A DNA stretch of 44,108 nt from an uncultured Victivallaceae bacterium (GTDB lineage Bacteria; Verrucomicrobiota; Lentisphaeria; Victivallales; Victivallaceae): positions 1-44,108 of the forward strand of contig CALXOD010000019.1 in assembly GCA_944389925.1 (NCBI GenBank), in the 5' to 3' direction. Under the pieces are notes generated by a model. That model made no database searches, had not been told where the DNA came from, and was given only the letters and a program-made list of their open reading frames with translations. The translations under genes and the position numbers were made by a program. Positions 1 through 29,315 of the stretch are shown here, in pieces (positions within the stretch are counted from its first letter, which is position 1; each line of letters opens with the position of its first letter).

Positions 1-758
1 GAGGCTGAACTTAAAATCGCAGCCAGTGGAACTTCCCCGTCCCCAACCGCAAGATGGAGTTTATAGCCGCACCAATAGGACGTTTTCCCCTTGCTGTCGC
101 GTTTACCGCCCCAGTCGCCACCTTGCGGAAGACCGGCAAGATTCTCCGGCAGTGTTTGATGCACTTGCAATTCAAGCCGCCGGGTTTTGATCTCTGCGAT
201 TTCCTGTTGGGACAACGCCGCTTTCTTCGCTATACTTTTCCGCCCGCGCTTCTTCTTGAGCTTGAATTTCGGCGTGTTTTTGCGGCAAGCTTTCTCGCGA
301 CCGATGATCGCACTTGAATCAAGGCTTGCGTGTCCCACCAATTTGTCGGTATAATTTTCCCGAATAATTGCCGCATGGATTGCATCGCACACTTTCTCTT
401 GGGCAAAAATCCCGAACGCCCTTGAGAAAGTTGCTTCGGACGGAACGTCTCCACGATACTCCCAGCCACAAAGTCTTCGCAAACTCGGATTTGTATTCAA
501 ATTTTCAATCAGCCCCTTCGTCGTCGGAAGGTCATAGACCGCTTTCAGAAAAAACGCCCGAAGCAGTTTTTCCCGGTCTTTCATCGGACGTCCCAATCCG
601 CTCCAACGCAGCGCGTTGGTGATGAAACGGGACGGTTTTACCAATTCTACAATCCGCAAAAACTCTTTCATTTTTGCAGTTAATTCGCCAATTTCTTCTT
701 CCAGCATTGGAAAAAGATATGTTTCCATCGTAAAGTAAAGTTTCGGCAGATCGTTCAT
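1..758 (-). CDS. IS4/IS5-type DDE transposase, 3' end cut by window edge
   Basis: An uninterrupted frame runs from an ATG at 758 to the window edge, giving 252 codons with no stop. A good ribosome binding site (GGAGG) lies just upstream at about 766-772. The N-terminal part resembles the DUF772-like region of IS5-group transposases. A mid-protein segment reads HASLDSSAI, which fits the first catalytic Asp of a DDE domain. A later segment, GYKLHLAVGDGE, is typical of the second conserved block of DDE_Tnp_1 proteins. The remaining Asp and Glu would lie outside the window. There is no frameshift in the visible part, so the element may be intact. The family group (IS4 or IS5/IS1182) is inferred from these motifs only. 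The terminal inverted repeats could not be identified because one end is missing. Confidence 0.8.
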   Translation of the reverse strand, partial: MNDLPKLYFTMETYLFPMLEEEIGELTAKMKEFLRIVELVKPSRFITNALRWSGLGRPMKDREKLLRAFFLKAVYDLPTTKGLIENLNTNPSLRRLCGWEYRGDVPSEATFSRAFGIFAQEKVCDAIHAAIIRENYTDKLVGHASLDSSAIIGREKACRKNTPKFKLKKKRGRKSIAKKAALSQQEIAEIKTRRLELQVHQTLPENLAGLPQGGDWGGKRDSKGKTSYWCGYKLHLAVGDGEVPLAAILSSA

Positions 759-972: not shown

Positions 973-1157
973 TGATGAATCATAATCCGAGGCTCAGGGT
1001 GCGCAAGTTCCCGCGGCCGGGGAGACTGTGACAGATCAGGCGGGCTGGCCTGACCGCGGTGGAGATTTCCGCCACGGCAAGGCGGCGATGCGTTGAGTAA
1101 GGATCTGCGAAAGGTTTGTCTCCGGAGCGTCCTGAGGGCGGCTCCGGTTTTTTTTTA
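973..1157 (+). ncRNA. Structured leader RNA or small RNA, unassigned
   Basis: The segment from the predicted start to the terminator has several GC-rich self-complementary blocks: CCGCGG twice, TCAGGC with GCCTGA around a short loop, GTGG with CCAC, and CCGCC with GGCGG. It ends in an intrinsic terminator. The next gene starts 42 bp later and no second promoter is visible between them. A cis-acting attenuated leader is therefore more likely than an independent small RNA. I compared it by eye with TPP, Moco, SAH, THF, fluoride, NiCo, c-di-GMP and SRP RNA consensus features and found no match. Its ligand, if any, is unknown. Confidence 0.4.
1122..1156 (+). terminator. Intrinsic terminator in the hyd leader
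   Basis: CCGGAGC (1122-1128) pairs perfectly with GCTCCGG (1141-1147). The pairing extends through part of the loop, and a run of nine T follows (1148-1156). It lies 42 bp before the first hyd gene, so it would act as an attenuator for that unit. Confidence 0.75.
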
Positions 1158-1198
1158 CAGAGAAAACGACGGAAAAGACACGGGGAAGGGAGGAGACA

Positions 1199-2940: not shown

Positions 2941-3212
2941 AATTCTCCCATCGCCCCCGGGGCTCTGGTCCCGCTTCGCGGCCTGCGGAATTATTTCCGG
3001 AGGCCACGCTCTCCGGGCCTCCGTGCGGCTACGCCGTACTCGGCCCTGCGAGTAAGGCATAAGAAAGGGAATAGAAAATTCTCCCATCGCCCCCGGGGCT
3101 CTGGTCCCGCTTCGCGGCCTGCGGAATTATTTCCGGAGGCCACGCTCTCCGGGCCTCTGTGCGGCTACGCCGTACTCGGCCCTGCGAGTAAGGCATAAGA
3201 AAGGGAATAGAA
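2941..3212. repeat. Two tandem copies of a 136-bp repeat
   Basis: Two head-to-tail units (2941-3076 and 3077-3212) are nearly identical; I noted one C/T difference. Each unit contains a hairpin-forming block, CGGAGGCC with GGCCTCCG, and runs of GC-rich sequence. Diverged copies in inverted orientation lie at about 4379-4540, on the other side of the nuclease gene. The weak open frames that cross the units are not convincing genes. Confidence 0.9.
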
Positions 3213-4555: not shown

Positions 4556-6016
4556 CTATTTTTCCGCTACCGGTTCCGACAAGCGGGGTTTGCGGGCGGC
4601 AGCGGTTTCGTCCAGTCGTCCGACCGGCGTAGTGACTGGTGCCTGATGTAGTTTTTCCGGATGGGTTTCAGCCAGTTCCGCCAGTTCCAGCATGGCATCG
4701 ACGAAGGCATCCAGCGTCTCTTTCGACTCGGTTTCGGTCGGTTCGATCATCAGCGCCTCGGGCACGATCAGCGGAAAATACATCGTCGGTGGATGAAATC
4801 CGCGATCGATCAGGCCTTTGGCGATGTCCAGCGCATGAACGCCTTTCTCCGCCTGACCCGAAGCGGAAAACACACATTCGTGCATGCACGGGCGATCATA
4901 TTTTTGGCGGTATGCTCCTGCCAGCCGGGCACGAACGTAATTGGCATTGAGCACGGCATGGGCGCTGACCCGGCGGAAGCCCTCCCGGCCAAGCGTCAGC
5001 ATGTAGGCGTAGGCTTTGAGAATCACCCCGAAGTTGCCGTAGAAGGGGGCAATATAGCCGATGCTTTCAGGGAAGGTGTATTCCAGAGAATAGGTACCGT
5101 CGGCGCGTTTTGCCACGCGGGAAACCGGCAGGAACGGCACGAGCTTTTCCGCTACGCCGACCGGTCCGGAGCCGGGACCGCCGCCACCGTGAGGAGTGGC
5201 AAAGGTTTTGTGCAGATTCACGTGCATGACGTCGAACCCGAGGTCGCCGGGACGGAGCCGACCGATGATCGCATTGAAATTCGCCCCGTCGCAATAGGCG
5301 AGGGCGCCCGCCGCATGCACCAGTTCGCAAATGGTCTTCACATTGGGGTCGAAAAGCCCGAGGGTGTTGGGACAGGTCAGCATTAAGCCGGCTACTTCGT
5401 CATTAAGTTTCGCACGCAGGTCTTCCAGATCGACGTTGCCGTCAGCATCTGATCGCACCACTTCGCACCGAAAACCGGCCACGGCGGCGCTGGCCGGATT
5501 GGTGCCGTGCGCGGCGTCCGGAATCAGCATGATTTTGCGCTTCGCGTCTCCCCGCGAACGGTGATAGGCGGCGATCAACATGGCGCCGGTCAGTTCGCCG
5601 TGCGCGCCGGCCAGCGGCTGCATGGTGCATTCGGCAAAACCGAGCAGCTCGGCCAGAATGGACTGCGCCTCGTAAACCACCGCCAGCGCCCCCTGGGTCA
5701 ACTGGCCTCCGTGGCGGAGCTGCGGCAGCAGCGGGTGCAGTTCGGCGAAACCGGGCAGGGCGGCAAGGCGTTCATGAAATTTCGGATTGTATTTCATGGT
5801 GCAGGAGCCGAGCGGATAGAAATTGGTGTCCACGCCCATATTTTTCCGGCTGAGATTGATGAAATGCCGGATCACCTCCTGTTCCGATAACTCCGGCAGT
5901 TCTGCCGGCTGATTCCGGCGCAGATGTGCGGGAATGCGGTCAACGACAGGCACGGACGGTTTCGGGAGCGAGGACCCGCGGCGACCGGGTTTGCTTTTTT
6001 CGAAAATCAGTTTCAT
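4556..6016 (-). CDS. gcvPB: Glycine dehydrogenase (decarboxylating) subunit 2
   Basis: This is the PLP-binding subunit of the two-subunit P-protein. With GcvPA it decarboxylates glycine and loads the aminomethyl group on lipoyl-GcvH. The 486-residue length is normal. The PLP-binding lysine is Lys270 in the motif LHKTFATPHGGGG. The conserved N-terminal block NFYPLGSCTMKYNPK is present. The start overlaps the gcvPA stop by 4 bases (ATGA), so the two are translationally coupled. The last 30 or so residues are low in conservation and charged. The gene ends close to a repeat, and no clear terminator is visible. Confidence 0.96.
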   Translation of the reverse strand: MKLIFEKSKPGRRGSSLPKPSVPVVDRIPAHLRRNQPAELPELSEQEVIRHFINLSRKNMGVDTNFYPLGSCTMKYNPKFHERLAALPGFAELHPLLPQLRHGGQLTQGALAVVYEAQSILAELLGFAECTMQPLAGAHGELTGAMLIAAYHRSRGDAKRKIMLIPDAAHGTNPASAAVAGFRCEVVRSDADGNVDLEDLRAKLNDEVAGLMLTCPNTLGLFDPNVKTICELVHAAGALAYCDGANFNAIIGRLRPGDLGFDVMHVNLHKTFATPHGGGGPGSGPVGVAEKLVPFLPVSRVAKRADGTYSLEYTFPESIGYIAPFYGNFGVILKAYAYMLTLGREGFRRVSAHAVLNANYVRARLAGAYRQKYDRPCMHECVFSASGQAEKGVHALDIAKGLIDRGFHPPTMYFPLIVPEALMIEPTETESKETLDAFVDAMLELAELAETHPEKLHQAPVTTPVGRLDETAAARKPRLSEPVAEK

Positions 6017-7344
6017 AAGACAGCCTCCAGCGCATTGGCAAGTCCCTTGATTTCCTCACGGGTGCGTTTTTCGGTGACGGCGACCAGCAGCTGATTGCCA
6101 CGTTCCGGATAATAGCGTCCGAGCGGGAATCCTGCCGCATATCCCTTGTCGATCAGGCGACCGACGGCTTCCGCCGCATCCAACGGCAGCCGGATGACGA
6201 ATTCGTTGAAGAAGGCTTCGCCACCGACTGCCTCCACGCCGTCGATCGCGAGCAGCTGTTCCCGGGCAAAAACCGCGTTGGCGGCGCAGGCTCGCGCCAC
6301 GTCGATCAGGCCCTGCTTGCCCACGCAGCTCAGATAAGCCAGGGCTGAGAGCGCGCAAAGATTTTCGTTGGAACAGATGTTTGACATGGCGTTTTCGCGC
6401 CGGATGTGCTGTTCGCGGGTTTGCAGCGTCAGTACGAAGCCTTCGCGCCCGGCGCCATCCACGGTGCGGCCGACGACCCGCCCCGGCATTTTCCGCAGGT
6501 ACTTTTCCGTAACGGCCATAAAACCGAGGTAGGGACCGCCGAACGAGAGCGGAATGCCCAGACTTTGACCTTCGCCGGTAACGATGTCAAAGCCCATTTC
6601 TCCGGGCGGCGTCAGCAGTGCCAGCGCGATCGGATAGGTCGAACAGACCGCCAACGCTTTCCGGTCGTGAACCGCCGCAGTGAAGGCCGACCAGTCTTCG
6701 ACAGTGCCGAAAACATTGGGGTACTGTACCAGCACGCAGGCGGTTTCCGGGGTGACTGCCTCCAGCAGTTTCCCGATGGCGGAGTCAGCCGGTCCGGCGG
6801 GAACCTCCAGCAGTTCAATGTCCAGATTGCAGCAATAGCAGCGGATCATCCGGCGGAAAATGGGGGAGACCGCTTCGGAAAGTACCACGCGGCGTTTCCC
6901 GGTCACGCGGCAGGCCAGCATCATTGCTTCAAAAAGCGCAGTGCCTCCATCGTACAGCGAGGCATTGGCCACCGGCATCGCAGTCAGGCGGCAGATCATC
7001 GTCTGATATTCGTAAATCGCCTGCAGCGTGCCCTGAGATGCCTCCGGCTGGTACGGCGTATAGGCAGTGTAAAATTCCGTGCGACCGGTGATTTCCGACA
7101 CCGCTGCCGGAATCAGGTGATCGTAATACCCGGCGCCGAGAAAATTGACCAGATCAACGGCGTTTTTCGATGCCAGTCGGCGTAACCGGCAGACCACCTC
7201 GTATTCCGACAGTCCCGGCGGCAGATTCAGGGGGGGCGGCGGTAATTCAACGCCGACCAGTTTCCATAATTCCTCGAATGAACTGCATCCGACTGTGCGG
7301 AGCATTTCCGTCGTATCTTCCAGGGTATTGGCGATATAGGGCAT
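6013..7344 (-). CDS. gcvPA: Glycine dehydrogenase (decarboxylating) subunit 1
   Basis: The 443-residue product is the partner of GcvPB. It shows the typical opening MPYIANT and the EMLRTVG block, then YTPYQPEASQGTLQAIYEYQ, which is characteristic of GcvPA. I placed the start at 7344 because AAAGGAG sits 9 bases upstream and family members begin here; the frame is open to 7440. It is separated from gcvH by 235 bp with no gene. Two-subunit P-proteins are common in anaerobes and Gram-positive lineages, while many proteobacteria have the fused form. Confidence 0.96.
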   Translation of the reverse strand: MPYIANTLEDTTEMLRTVGCSSFEELWKLVGVELPPPPLNLPPGLSEYEVVCRLRRLASKNAVDLVNFLGAGYYDHLIPAAVSEITGRTEFYTAYTPYQPEASQGTLQAIYEYQTMICRLTAMPVANASLYDGGTALFEAMMLACRVTGKRRVVLSEAVSPIFRRMIRCYCCNLDIELLEVPAGPADSAIGKLLEAVTPETACVLVQYPNVFGTVEDWSAFTAAVHDRKALAVCSTYPIALALLTPPGEMGFDIVTGEGQSLGIPLSFGGPYLGFMAVTEKYLRKMPGRVVGRTVDGAGREGFVLTLQTREQHIRRENAMSNICSNENLCALSALAYLSCVGKQGLIDVARACAANAVFAREQLLAIDGVEAVGGEAFFNEFVIRLPLDAAEAVGRLIDKGYAAGFPLGRYYPERGNQLLVAVTEKRTREEIKGLANALEAVL

Positions 7345-7579
7345 AGATCCGGCTCCTTTGGTATTATCAATCCTGGATTTGCACGTTTGTTGTACATCAT
7401 TCCATAACGGAAAGACCGTATTTTTTTTCCGTTCGTCCACTTCCGGAGGAAAGAAAAACCGACGGAACCCTTTACCGGGATCCGCCGGATTTCATCGTTC
7501 TGAAATGTTGATTCCGCGGAACGCCGAATGTTAGTAAAACGTCCGGCACGTCGATGGCGAACGGCGTCACAAGGGGGGG
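7345..7579. other. Spacer between gcvH and gcvPA
   Basis: This 235-bp gap holds no convincing gene. I looked for a glycine riboswitch, a terminator and a promoter and found none. The spacing is large for an operon whose other junction overlaps. Confidence 0.5.
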
Positions 7580-7954
7580 TCAACTGCCCAGTTTTTTCAG
7601 ATATTTGAAATAGGCATCTTCATTCATCATATCGTTGACTTCAGTGGTATCGATATTGACCAGACGGCAGATCCACCCTTTGTCCTCCGGCGATTCATTG
7701 ATCAAACCGGGGTCGTCGATCAACGAATCGTTAACCGCAGAAACCGTACCGCTGATCGGCGAATAGATGTCGGAGGAAGCCTTGACGGATTCCACTTCTC
7801 CGAGTTTGTCGCCGATGATGAAATCGTCGTCCTCTTCCGGCAGTTCGACGTAGGTGATGTCGCCCAGTTCATTGGCTGCGTATTCGGAGATGCCGACAAC
7901 GGCCTCCTCCCCATTGATCTCCACCCACTCGTGGTCTTCGGAATAATATTTCAT
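7580..7954 (-). CDS. gcvH: Glycine cleavage system H protein
   Basis: GcvH carries lipoyl-bound intermediates between the P, T and L proteins. The product is 124 residues. The lipoylation site is Lys58 in ESVKASSDIYSP, exactly as in the family, and the start region HEWVEINGEEAVVGIS is canonical. I chose the ATG at 7954 over the upstream one because AAGGAG lies 7 bases before it. The gene is first in the gcvH-gcvPA-gcvPB series. No gcvT or lipoamide dehydrogenase gene is in the window. Confidence 0.97.
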   Translation of the reverse strand: MKYYSEDHEWVEINGEEAVVGISEYAANELGDITYVELPEEDDDFIIGDKLGEVESVKASSDIYSPISGTVSAVNDSLIDDPGLINESPEDKGWICRLVNIDTTEVNDMMNEDAYFKYLKKLGS

Positions 7955-8065
7955 GTCCACTCCTTCTTCAAAACTCCATGGCATTGCCGCCGGAGACGAT
8001 TCGGAAGAACGCCATTCACCACGCTCATCCGTTCCGTCCTCAACAACAGTGAATGAACCACATCT

Positions 8066-13607: not shown

Positions 13608-13715
13608 AAAATCTCCACAGCTGTTCTGGCGGTGAATCCCGTGTAAACCGGGAACTGTCGCGCAACCGTAAATGCGGAATGTCTATCGCATGAGTCGGAG
13701 CCCGCCCTGCGGAGA
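13608..13715 (+). promoter_or_regulatory. Cobalamin riboswitch
   Basis: The core elements of the adenosylcobalamin-type aptamer are in order. GGTGAATCCCG is followed by CGGGAACTGTCGCGCAACCGT, which corresponds to the conserved CCGCNACTGT block. Then comes TGAGTCGGAGCCCGCC, the B12 box. Downstream a small hairpin, TTGTG with CACAA, ends right before the AGAGG ribosome binding site of the first gene, so control at translation initiation is likely. High B12 would lower expression of the whole operon. The exact outer stem borders are approximate. Confidence 0.88.
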
Positions 13716-29065: not shown

Positions 29066-29154
29066 AAAAGCTGAATGCAGTCCATTGGCTGCATTCGATG
29101 GGATCATAAAAGCAGCCGTTCGCCGCAGTCGGACGGCAAAAAAATAATCGATTC

Positions 29155-29276
29155 GTCTTCGGGGCGGGGTGTAATTCCCCACCGGCGGTGAAAGTCCGCG
29201 ACTCCCGGCAGAAAATAACCGGGACTGATCCGGTGCAAATCCGGAACCGACAGTGAGAGTCTGGATGAGAGAAGAC
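29155..29276 (+). promoter_or_regulatory. FMN riboswitch (RFN element)
   Basis: The conserved blocks are in order: CTTCGGGGCGGGGTG, ATTCCCCACCGGCGGT, AAAGTCCGCGA, then GACTGATCCGGTGCAAATCCG, CCGACAGT and GAGAGTCTGGATGAGAGAAG. The closing stem is GTCTTC (29155-29160) with GAAGAC (29271-29276). FMN binding would lower expression of ribB downstream. Confidence 0.95.
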
Positions 29277-29315
29277 GGGCACCTGGCCGCCGCATTGCAT
29301 GTGGTGGAAGTTTGG

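Follow-up and report, generated by a model that had tools for sequence, protein, structure and literature searches.

A conserved RNA element ahead of TM1266 and hydG in two bacterial phyla, with the layout of a transcription attenuator

Little is known of how anaerobes control the assembly of the [FeFe]-hydrogenase cofactor. The stretch of DNA analysed here (the window; 44,108 nucleotides) is contig 19 of a 2.8-Mb genome from the order containing Victivallis, and near one end it carries a gene of the TM1266 family (1199–1471, + strand, with an alternative start at 1211; TIGR03959, PF21699; a relative of 2NZC) followed by hydG, which encodes the radical SAM maturase of the H-cluster (1506–2924, + strand; TIGR03955, 928.8 bits). 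TM1266 has been called a putative regulator on the basis of gene neighbourhood only. Here it is the candidate trans-acting regulator and hydG the presumed target. Between the promoter and these genes lies a long structured leader, and the question is what this leader does and what reads it. We find that it is a real, uncatalogued RNA element, very likely regulatory, present in many gut and anaerobic bacteria of two phyla.

The promoter of the leader and operon (937–966, + strand) reads TTTGCA-18-TATATT, with an extended TG ahead of the –10 hexamer, and both hexamers are unchanged in a genome of the same genus (G016). Structured RNA spans 973–1121 and is followed by an intrinsic terminator (1122–1156, + strand), which consists of a hairpin (1122–1147; –18.1 kcal/mol, z –2.6) and nine T (1148–1156), giving a leader of ∼190 nt in total. 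The terminator stem differs in G016 by compensatory changes (GUCC/GGGC to GCUC/GAGC). A simple terminator scanner missed this terminator, probably owing to the bulge in its stem. The T run ends 42 nt before the first ATG (1199), and a promoter scan of the window lists no second promoter-like site in 1157–1199. The leader as a whole (973–1160) folds with –76.6 kcal/mol (z = –1.6), and 9 of 200 shuffled sequences fold equally well; folding energy alone is therefore marginal evidence, and the weight falls on comparison. An earlier note, made from the sequence alone, had described a consensus-like promoter at 938–966, a structured leader of ∼185 nt, a strong intrinsic terminator 42 bp before the first gene and no second visible promoter. 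These claims held, including the distance, with the proviso that comparative evidence for the leader is stronger than its energy. What the note overlooked is a tandem of two similar hairpins (986–1023 and 1044–1086).

The first of these copies, m1 (983–1026 including flanks of the core, + strand), forms the hairpin UCC-GA-GGCU-CA-GGGU..UCCC-GC-GGCC-GG-GGA, in agreement with the predicted fold and with alignment to relatives under covariance models R1 and R2. A descriptor of m1 has one other match only on both strands of the 44-kb window, which argues that it is more than chance. One caveat here is that m1 is a member of the R1 and R2 training sets. The second copy, m2 (+ strand), is divergent, with a stem GCUG-g-CCU / AGG-CGGC, a GA/CA loop, a CCG/CGG stem and an apical stem; its fold has a z of –2.2, and its match to the later model R3 is weak (9.0 bits). 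Base differences in m2 between the window and G016 leave the stems intact, and G016 retains the entire first hairpin together with the stems of the second. The m2 domain may be closed by a further stem (1032–1107, + strand), in which CAGAUC (1032–1037) faces GAUCUG (1102–1107); this was read from the sequence and is largely kept in G016. Inside the window R3 scores do not discriminate, the best (10.6 bits) falling over the terminator, and hence the copies were placed by synteny, structure and R1/R2. They are among the more divergent members of the family, with homology resting on synteny, shared architecture and G016.

Searching at the DNA level gave no match beyond the genus (G016 being the sole one), nor did a 23-nt pattern reveal any further true copy in the order. 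We fetched the DNA ahead of TM1266 from 87 genomes of the order, many of which share the same layout of promoter, two similar hairpins, terminator and TM1266. The repeating unit is a hairpin of ∼40 nt whose two internal loops are purine-rich (GA/GA-like) and whose middle stem covaries strongly. Its consensus in the Victivallales is UCU-GA-stem-RA-GGG..CCC-GA-stem-GA-AGR, that is, three short helices with the two loops between them. The first covariance model, built from 15 copies, recovered 37 (E ≤ 0.4) from 36 loci, almost all of them immediately upstream of the genes. On the structure-fitted alignment, all four pairs of the middle stem change on both sides, and the covariation score is 0.49, compared to 0.22 for shuffled and 0.07–0.18 for slid controls. 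Because this alignment had been fitted to the structure, the count was repeated on a plain MAFFT alignment (31 copies, both phyla), with a score of 0.35 versus 0.17 shuffled and 0.09–0.17 slid. RNAalifold, unaided, recovers the two inner stems, with 4 of 5 pairs altered on both sides. The unit is in tandem in the Victivallales and mostly single in Clostridia, a terminator following in both. The clostridial consensus has a closing stem UCGU-N-CU/AGGCGA, in which one base is bulged, followed by AUAG..CUAU and then by the terminator; GCCUU on the 5′ side of the terminator is complementary to AAGGC in the closing stem.

Where does the element occur? All 25 of the best rows in the order-wide scan (E < 0.004) lie upstream of TM1266-hydG or of a lone hydG. 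V. vadensis DSM 14823 (L165) corresponds to the same-family genome G025, with identical element and terminator. Scanning the loci of 80 hydG genes from named genomes gave clostridial matches, all of them in sense orientation and upstream of hydG; the carriers include Clostridium frigoris, C. yunnanense, Anaerovorax odorimutans, Acetobacterium bakii and Monoglobus. For whole-genome scans we used R3, a combined model from Victivallales and clostridial copies. In the Clostridiales (the order of C. frigoris), 54 of 226 genomes contain a match at E ≤ 0.02, one each, and the 52 that can be evaluated are all at TM1266/hydG; the remaining two run off a contig end. The 392 genomes of the Lachnospirales (the order of Lacrimispora) yielded 27 matches, mostly ahead of TM1266 with hydE or hydG, with three upstream of hydE without TM1266 and three upstream of an SsuA/NMT1-like ABC transporter (L284, L367, L371). 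At L360, one element is followed by TM1266 and the binding protein of the transporter. These analyses show a conserved element with a covarying stem, placed before TM1266, hydG, hydE or the transporter, and a terminator.

Some matches were set aside. Weak R2 matches away from hyd genes (L128, L131, L132, L134, L135) fall within or antisense to long ORFs or lack hyd context and were taken as chance, a verdict that covers the inspected ones, three others not having been inspected; L366 and L370, inside coding sequence, were also taken as chance. Two side observations concern the loci. The transporter shares an element or operon with TM1266 in five lachnospiral loci (L284, L346, L367, L371, L360), and its substrate may hint at the signal or at a maturation precursor. 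Three lone-hydG leaders (L245, L246, L247) have the element and a long-range CUUCC..GGGAAG or similar pairing, without a clear terminator, and are perhaps a translational version of the switch.

No Rfam 15 family reaches its gathering threshold at the element in the window (permissive scan included) or in the sampled relatives (20 Victivallales loci at E ≤ 0.5, 20 mostly clostridial loci, and four clostridial loci at E ≤ 2). Known riboswitches and the T-box were rejected on this ground. The PyrR binding site (RF00515) reached just 25.1 bits (cutoff 54), and this in a single 221-nt stretch, where the alignment falls mainly on the terminator; in a larger scan the match vanished. For 6S RNA (RF00013), nothing in the genome exceeds the cutoff, the best weak match is elsewhere, and the leader fold is not closed end to end. 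We found no paper on an RNA of hydG or TM1266 in the open-licence literature searched, although a 2017 survey of 224 motifs lay outside that search. The earlier note had called for the Rfam scan and for a covariance model from relatives, and both were run, the latter giving the covarying pairs described above. Its suggestion of a riboswitch or protein-dependent attenuator, of a class it could not recall, is supported, with the evidence leaning to the protein-dependent attenuator and the choice of mechanism and ligand still open. The tie that it drew to hydrogenase maturation is supported too, since the element precedes hydG, hydE or TM1266 across two phyla.

A conserved hairpin between a promoter and an intrinsic terminator fulfils one of the criteria for a protein-dependent attenuator, and we consider it very likely that the leader is a transcription attenuator. 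The candidate switch strand in the window is AGGCG (1080–1084, + strand), on the 3′ side of m2, whose counterpart in relatives is complementary to the terminator. We compared the 9-nt strand around AAGGC with the 45 nt preceding the T run. The longest Watson-Crick match was 4.81, versus 3.97 shuffled, and none of 500 shuffles reached as high. In the Victivallales, a genome's own pair of strands matched better than swapped ones (P = 0.003; overall P = 0.0015). In Clostridia, own and swapped partners were no different in this seed-based test, because both strands are constant there. A duplex-energy permutation test of the antiterminator was null. The seed-based test came after it, and its choice is to that extent not fully independent. 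In G016 the pairing is weak, as it is in the window, which offers merely an AGG-CG / CG-u-CCU match to 1128–1133. Given the excess in one test and the null result in the other, we regard an antiterminator layout, with mutually exclusive pairing of the strand in the hairpin or with the terminator, as likely but not shown.

Is TM1266 the reader? Where Victivallales genomes have a lone hydG and encode TM1266 elsewhere, the element precedes hydG in 9 of 10, compared to 0 of 10 genomes without TM1266 (Fisher 1.2e-4), and several of the TM1266-negative genomes are 95–99% complete. Across all hydG-bearing Victivallales genomes, a hand tally at a threshold of 15 bits gives the element in 35 of 43 TM1266-positive versus 0 of 10 TM1266-negative genomes; the Fisher test over this full set used a rougher 37/43. 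On the HydG tree, however, the association amounts to at most 5 independent pairs, 2 of them on well supported branches, so significance is out of reach and the link is suggestive only. TM1266 is also encoded in 13 of 14 element-bearing genomes, and in the fourteenth the match is at a contig end. These 14 were picked mostly for elements not adjoining TM1266, and the background rate of TM1266 in those orders was not measured. Conversely, TM1266 occurs in many genomes without an element found ahead of it. One such set is genus g47 (L047, L048, L052, L056, L098, L099) and g17 of the Victivallales, which have TM1266, sometimes two per genome, no element ahead and no HydG match at 1e-100.

The structure of TM1266, both predicted (pLDDT 90) and solved (2NZC), is that of the NikR sensor domain alone (Z 12–13); the protein is regulator-like, without an obvious output at DNA. 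Ribosomal protein S6, which binds RNA, is among the weaker structural neighbours; a shared fold shows no function. A few positions of TM1266 differ between genomes with and without an element, and as these track clades, we claim no RNA-binding residues. Co-occurrence and fold favour TM1266 as the reader; that it binds the leader hairpins is an inference without binding data, as likely to be wrong as right.

Putting these pieces together, we propose, with a probability of roughly 0.5, that the leader is a PyrR-like attenuator of a hydG regulon and TM1266 its RNA-binding regulator; binding, direction and ligand are all inferred. Between the promoter and the intrinsic terminator there would be one hairpin or two, with a pair of purine-rich internal loops in each. 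When the AAGGC-like 3′ strand of the last hairpin stays in the hairpin, the terminator would form and the genes would be off; when it pairs instead with the 5′ side and loop of the terminator, transcription would continue. TM1266 would bind the hairpins, stabilise the hairpin state, free the terminator and shut the operon, much as PyrR is seen, by analogy, to control pyr operons. Its trigger would be a signal tied to H-cluster assembly, reporting that maturation suffices (both direction and signal being inferred), and the two copies in Victivallales may sharpen the response. A bolder version, for which there are no binding data and against which we would lean slightly, is that TM1266, an orphan putative regulator of the iron-only hydrogenase system, founds a new type of attenuation protein. 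On this view a NikR-like sensor domain on its own would bind GA/GA-like double-loop hairpins, so that transcription of hydG, hydE and the associated ABC transporter would respond to the state of H-cluster assembly in two phyla.

The main rival is a metabolite or ion riboswitch, which remains possible, again in the absence of binding data. Here the hairpin would serve as the aptamer for some substrate, product or metal of H-cluster maturation, with competition between its closing stem and the antiterminator; two copies would sharpen the response in Victivallales, and TM1266 would merely be a controlled gene. In its favour are the conserved purine loops and closing stem (UCGU-N-CU/AGGCGA), the inclusion of an SsuA/NMT1-type transporter in the regulon, as is often seen with small-molecule switches, and the sufficiency of single copies in Clostridia. 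Against it, the hairpin is simple for an aptamer, and the absence of the element from hydG in 10/10 TM1266-negative Victivallales genomes is unexpected if TM1266 is a mere target. Less probable is an attenuator or processing site read by another RNA-binding protein, with TM1266 uninvolved. Simple, often tandem hairpins do resemble orphan elements such as pan (PMC2864571), but in the examined loci the element is accompanied only by hydG, hydE, TM1266 and a single type of transporter, and by no other candidate gene. Last, a separate small RNA gene might end by chance just before the operon. Its own promoter and terminator speak for this reading, which is nevertheless very unlikely, as the element keeps its place ahead of hyd genes in both phyla, also where hydG or hydE stands alone, and no second promoter is listed.

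Several other features of the window deserve mention. Directly upstream of the hyd promoter is a transposase-like ORF truncated by the window (3–758, – strand); G016 has a divergent SGNH-hydrolase-like ORF in the same place, so an insertion element probably landed in the lineage of the window. The glycine cleavage genes gcvPB, gcvPA and gcvH (4556–7984, – strand) are convergent to hydG. The H protein is the donor of the azadithiolate bridge of the H-cluster, so the gcv-hydG neighbourhood may be functional. A short palindromic block, TTCGCGGCCTGCGGAATTATTTCCG, is repeated after hydG (2975–2989 and 3111–3125), resembles blocks in L005 and looks like a dispersed intergenic repeat. Farther away are an AdoCbl-II riboswitch (13615–13712) and an FMN riboswitch (29151–29280), both on the + strand and above gathering score.

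The conserved RNA that precedes hydG in Victivallis vadensis, Clostridium and Acetobacterium is a directly testable target. It would define a hyd regulon, with an ABC transporter of unknown substrate as a member, and would represent a new class of regulatory RNA spanning two phyla.

How does the element compare with known systems? In pyr attenuators, pyrR is first in the operon, and further PyrR sites precede a transporter and enzymes (pyrR, pyrP, pyrB; PMC7430163). Likewise, the candidate regulator gene, TM1266, comes first here, with more copies before a transporter and enzymes. The PyrR site (RF00515) is a hairpin with a purine-rich internal bulge that works as an anti-antiterminator ahead of a terminator, and the leader hairpin would be its counterpart. 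The consensus, regulon and candidate protein differ, and the score is below cutoff. The pan motif, an orphan element suggested to bind a dimeric protein, shares a simple stem, conserved unpaired purines, a mostly tandem arrangement and restriction to one pathway (PMC2864571); however, pan has two bulged A and belongs to pantothenate genes, whereas the hyd element has two GA/GA-like internal loops and no Rfam match. Tandem glycine and other tandem riboswitches also place two similar domains before a terminator, but the units here are single hairpins and no Rfam riboswitch class matches them. Finally, TM1266 superposes on the sensor domain of NikR (Z 12–13, rmsd 1.5–2.2) but is without the ribbon-helix-helix DNA-binding domain, and regulation through RNA contact would be a different output for this sensor.
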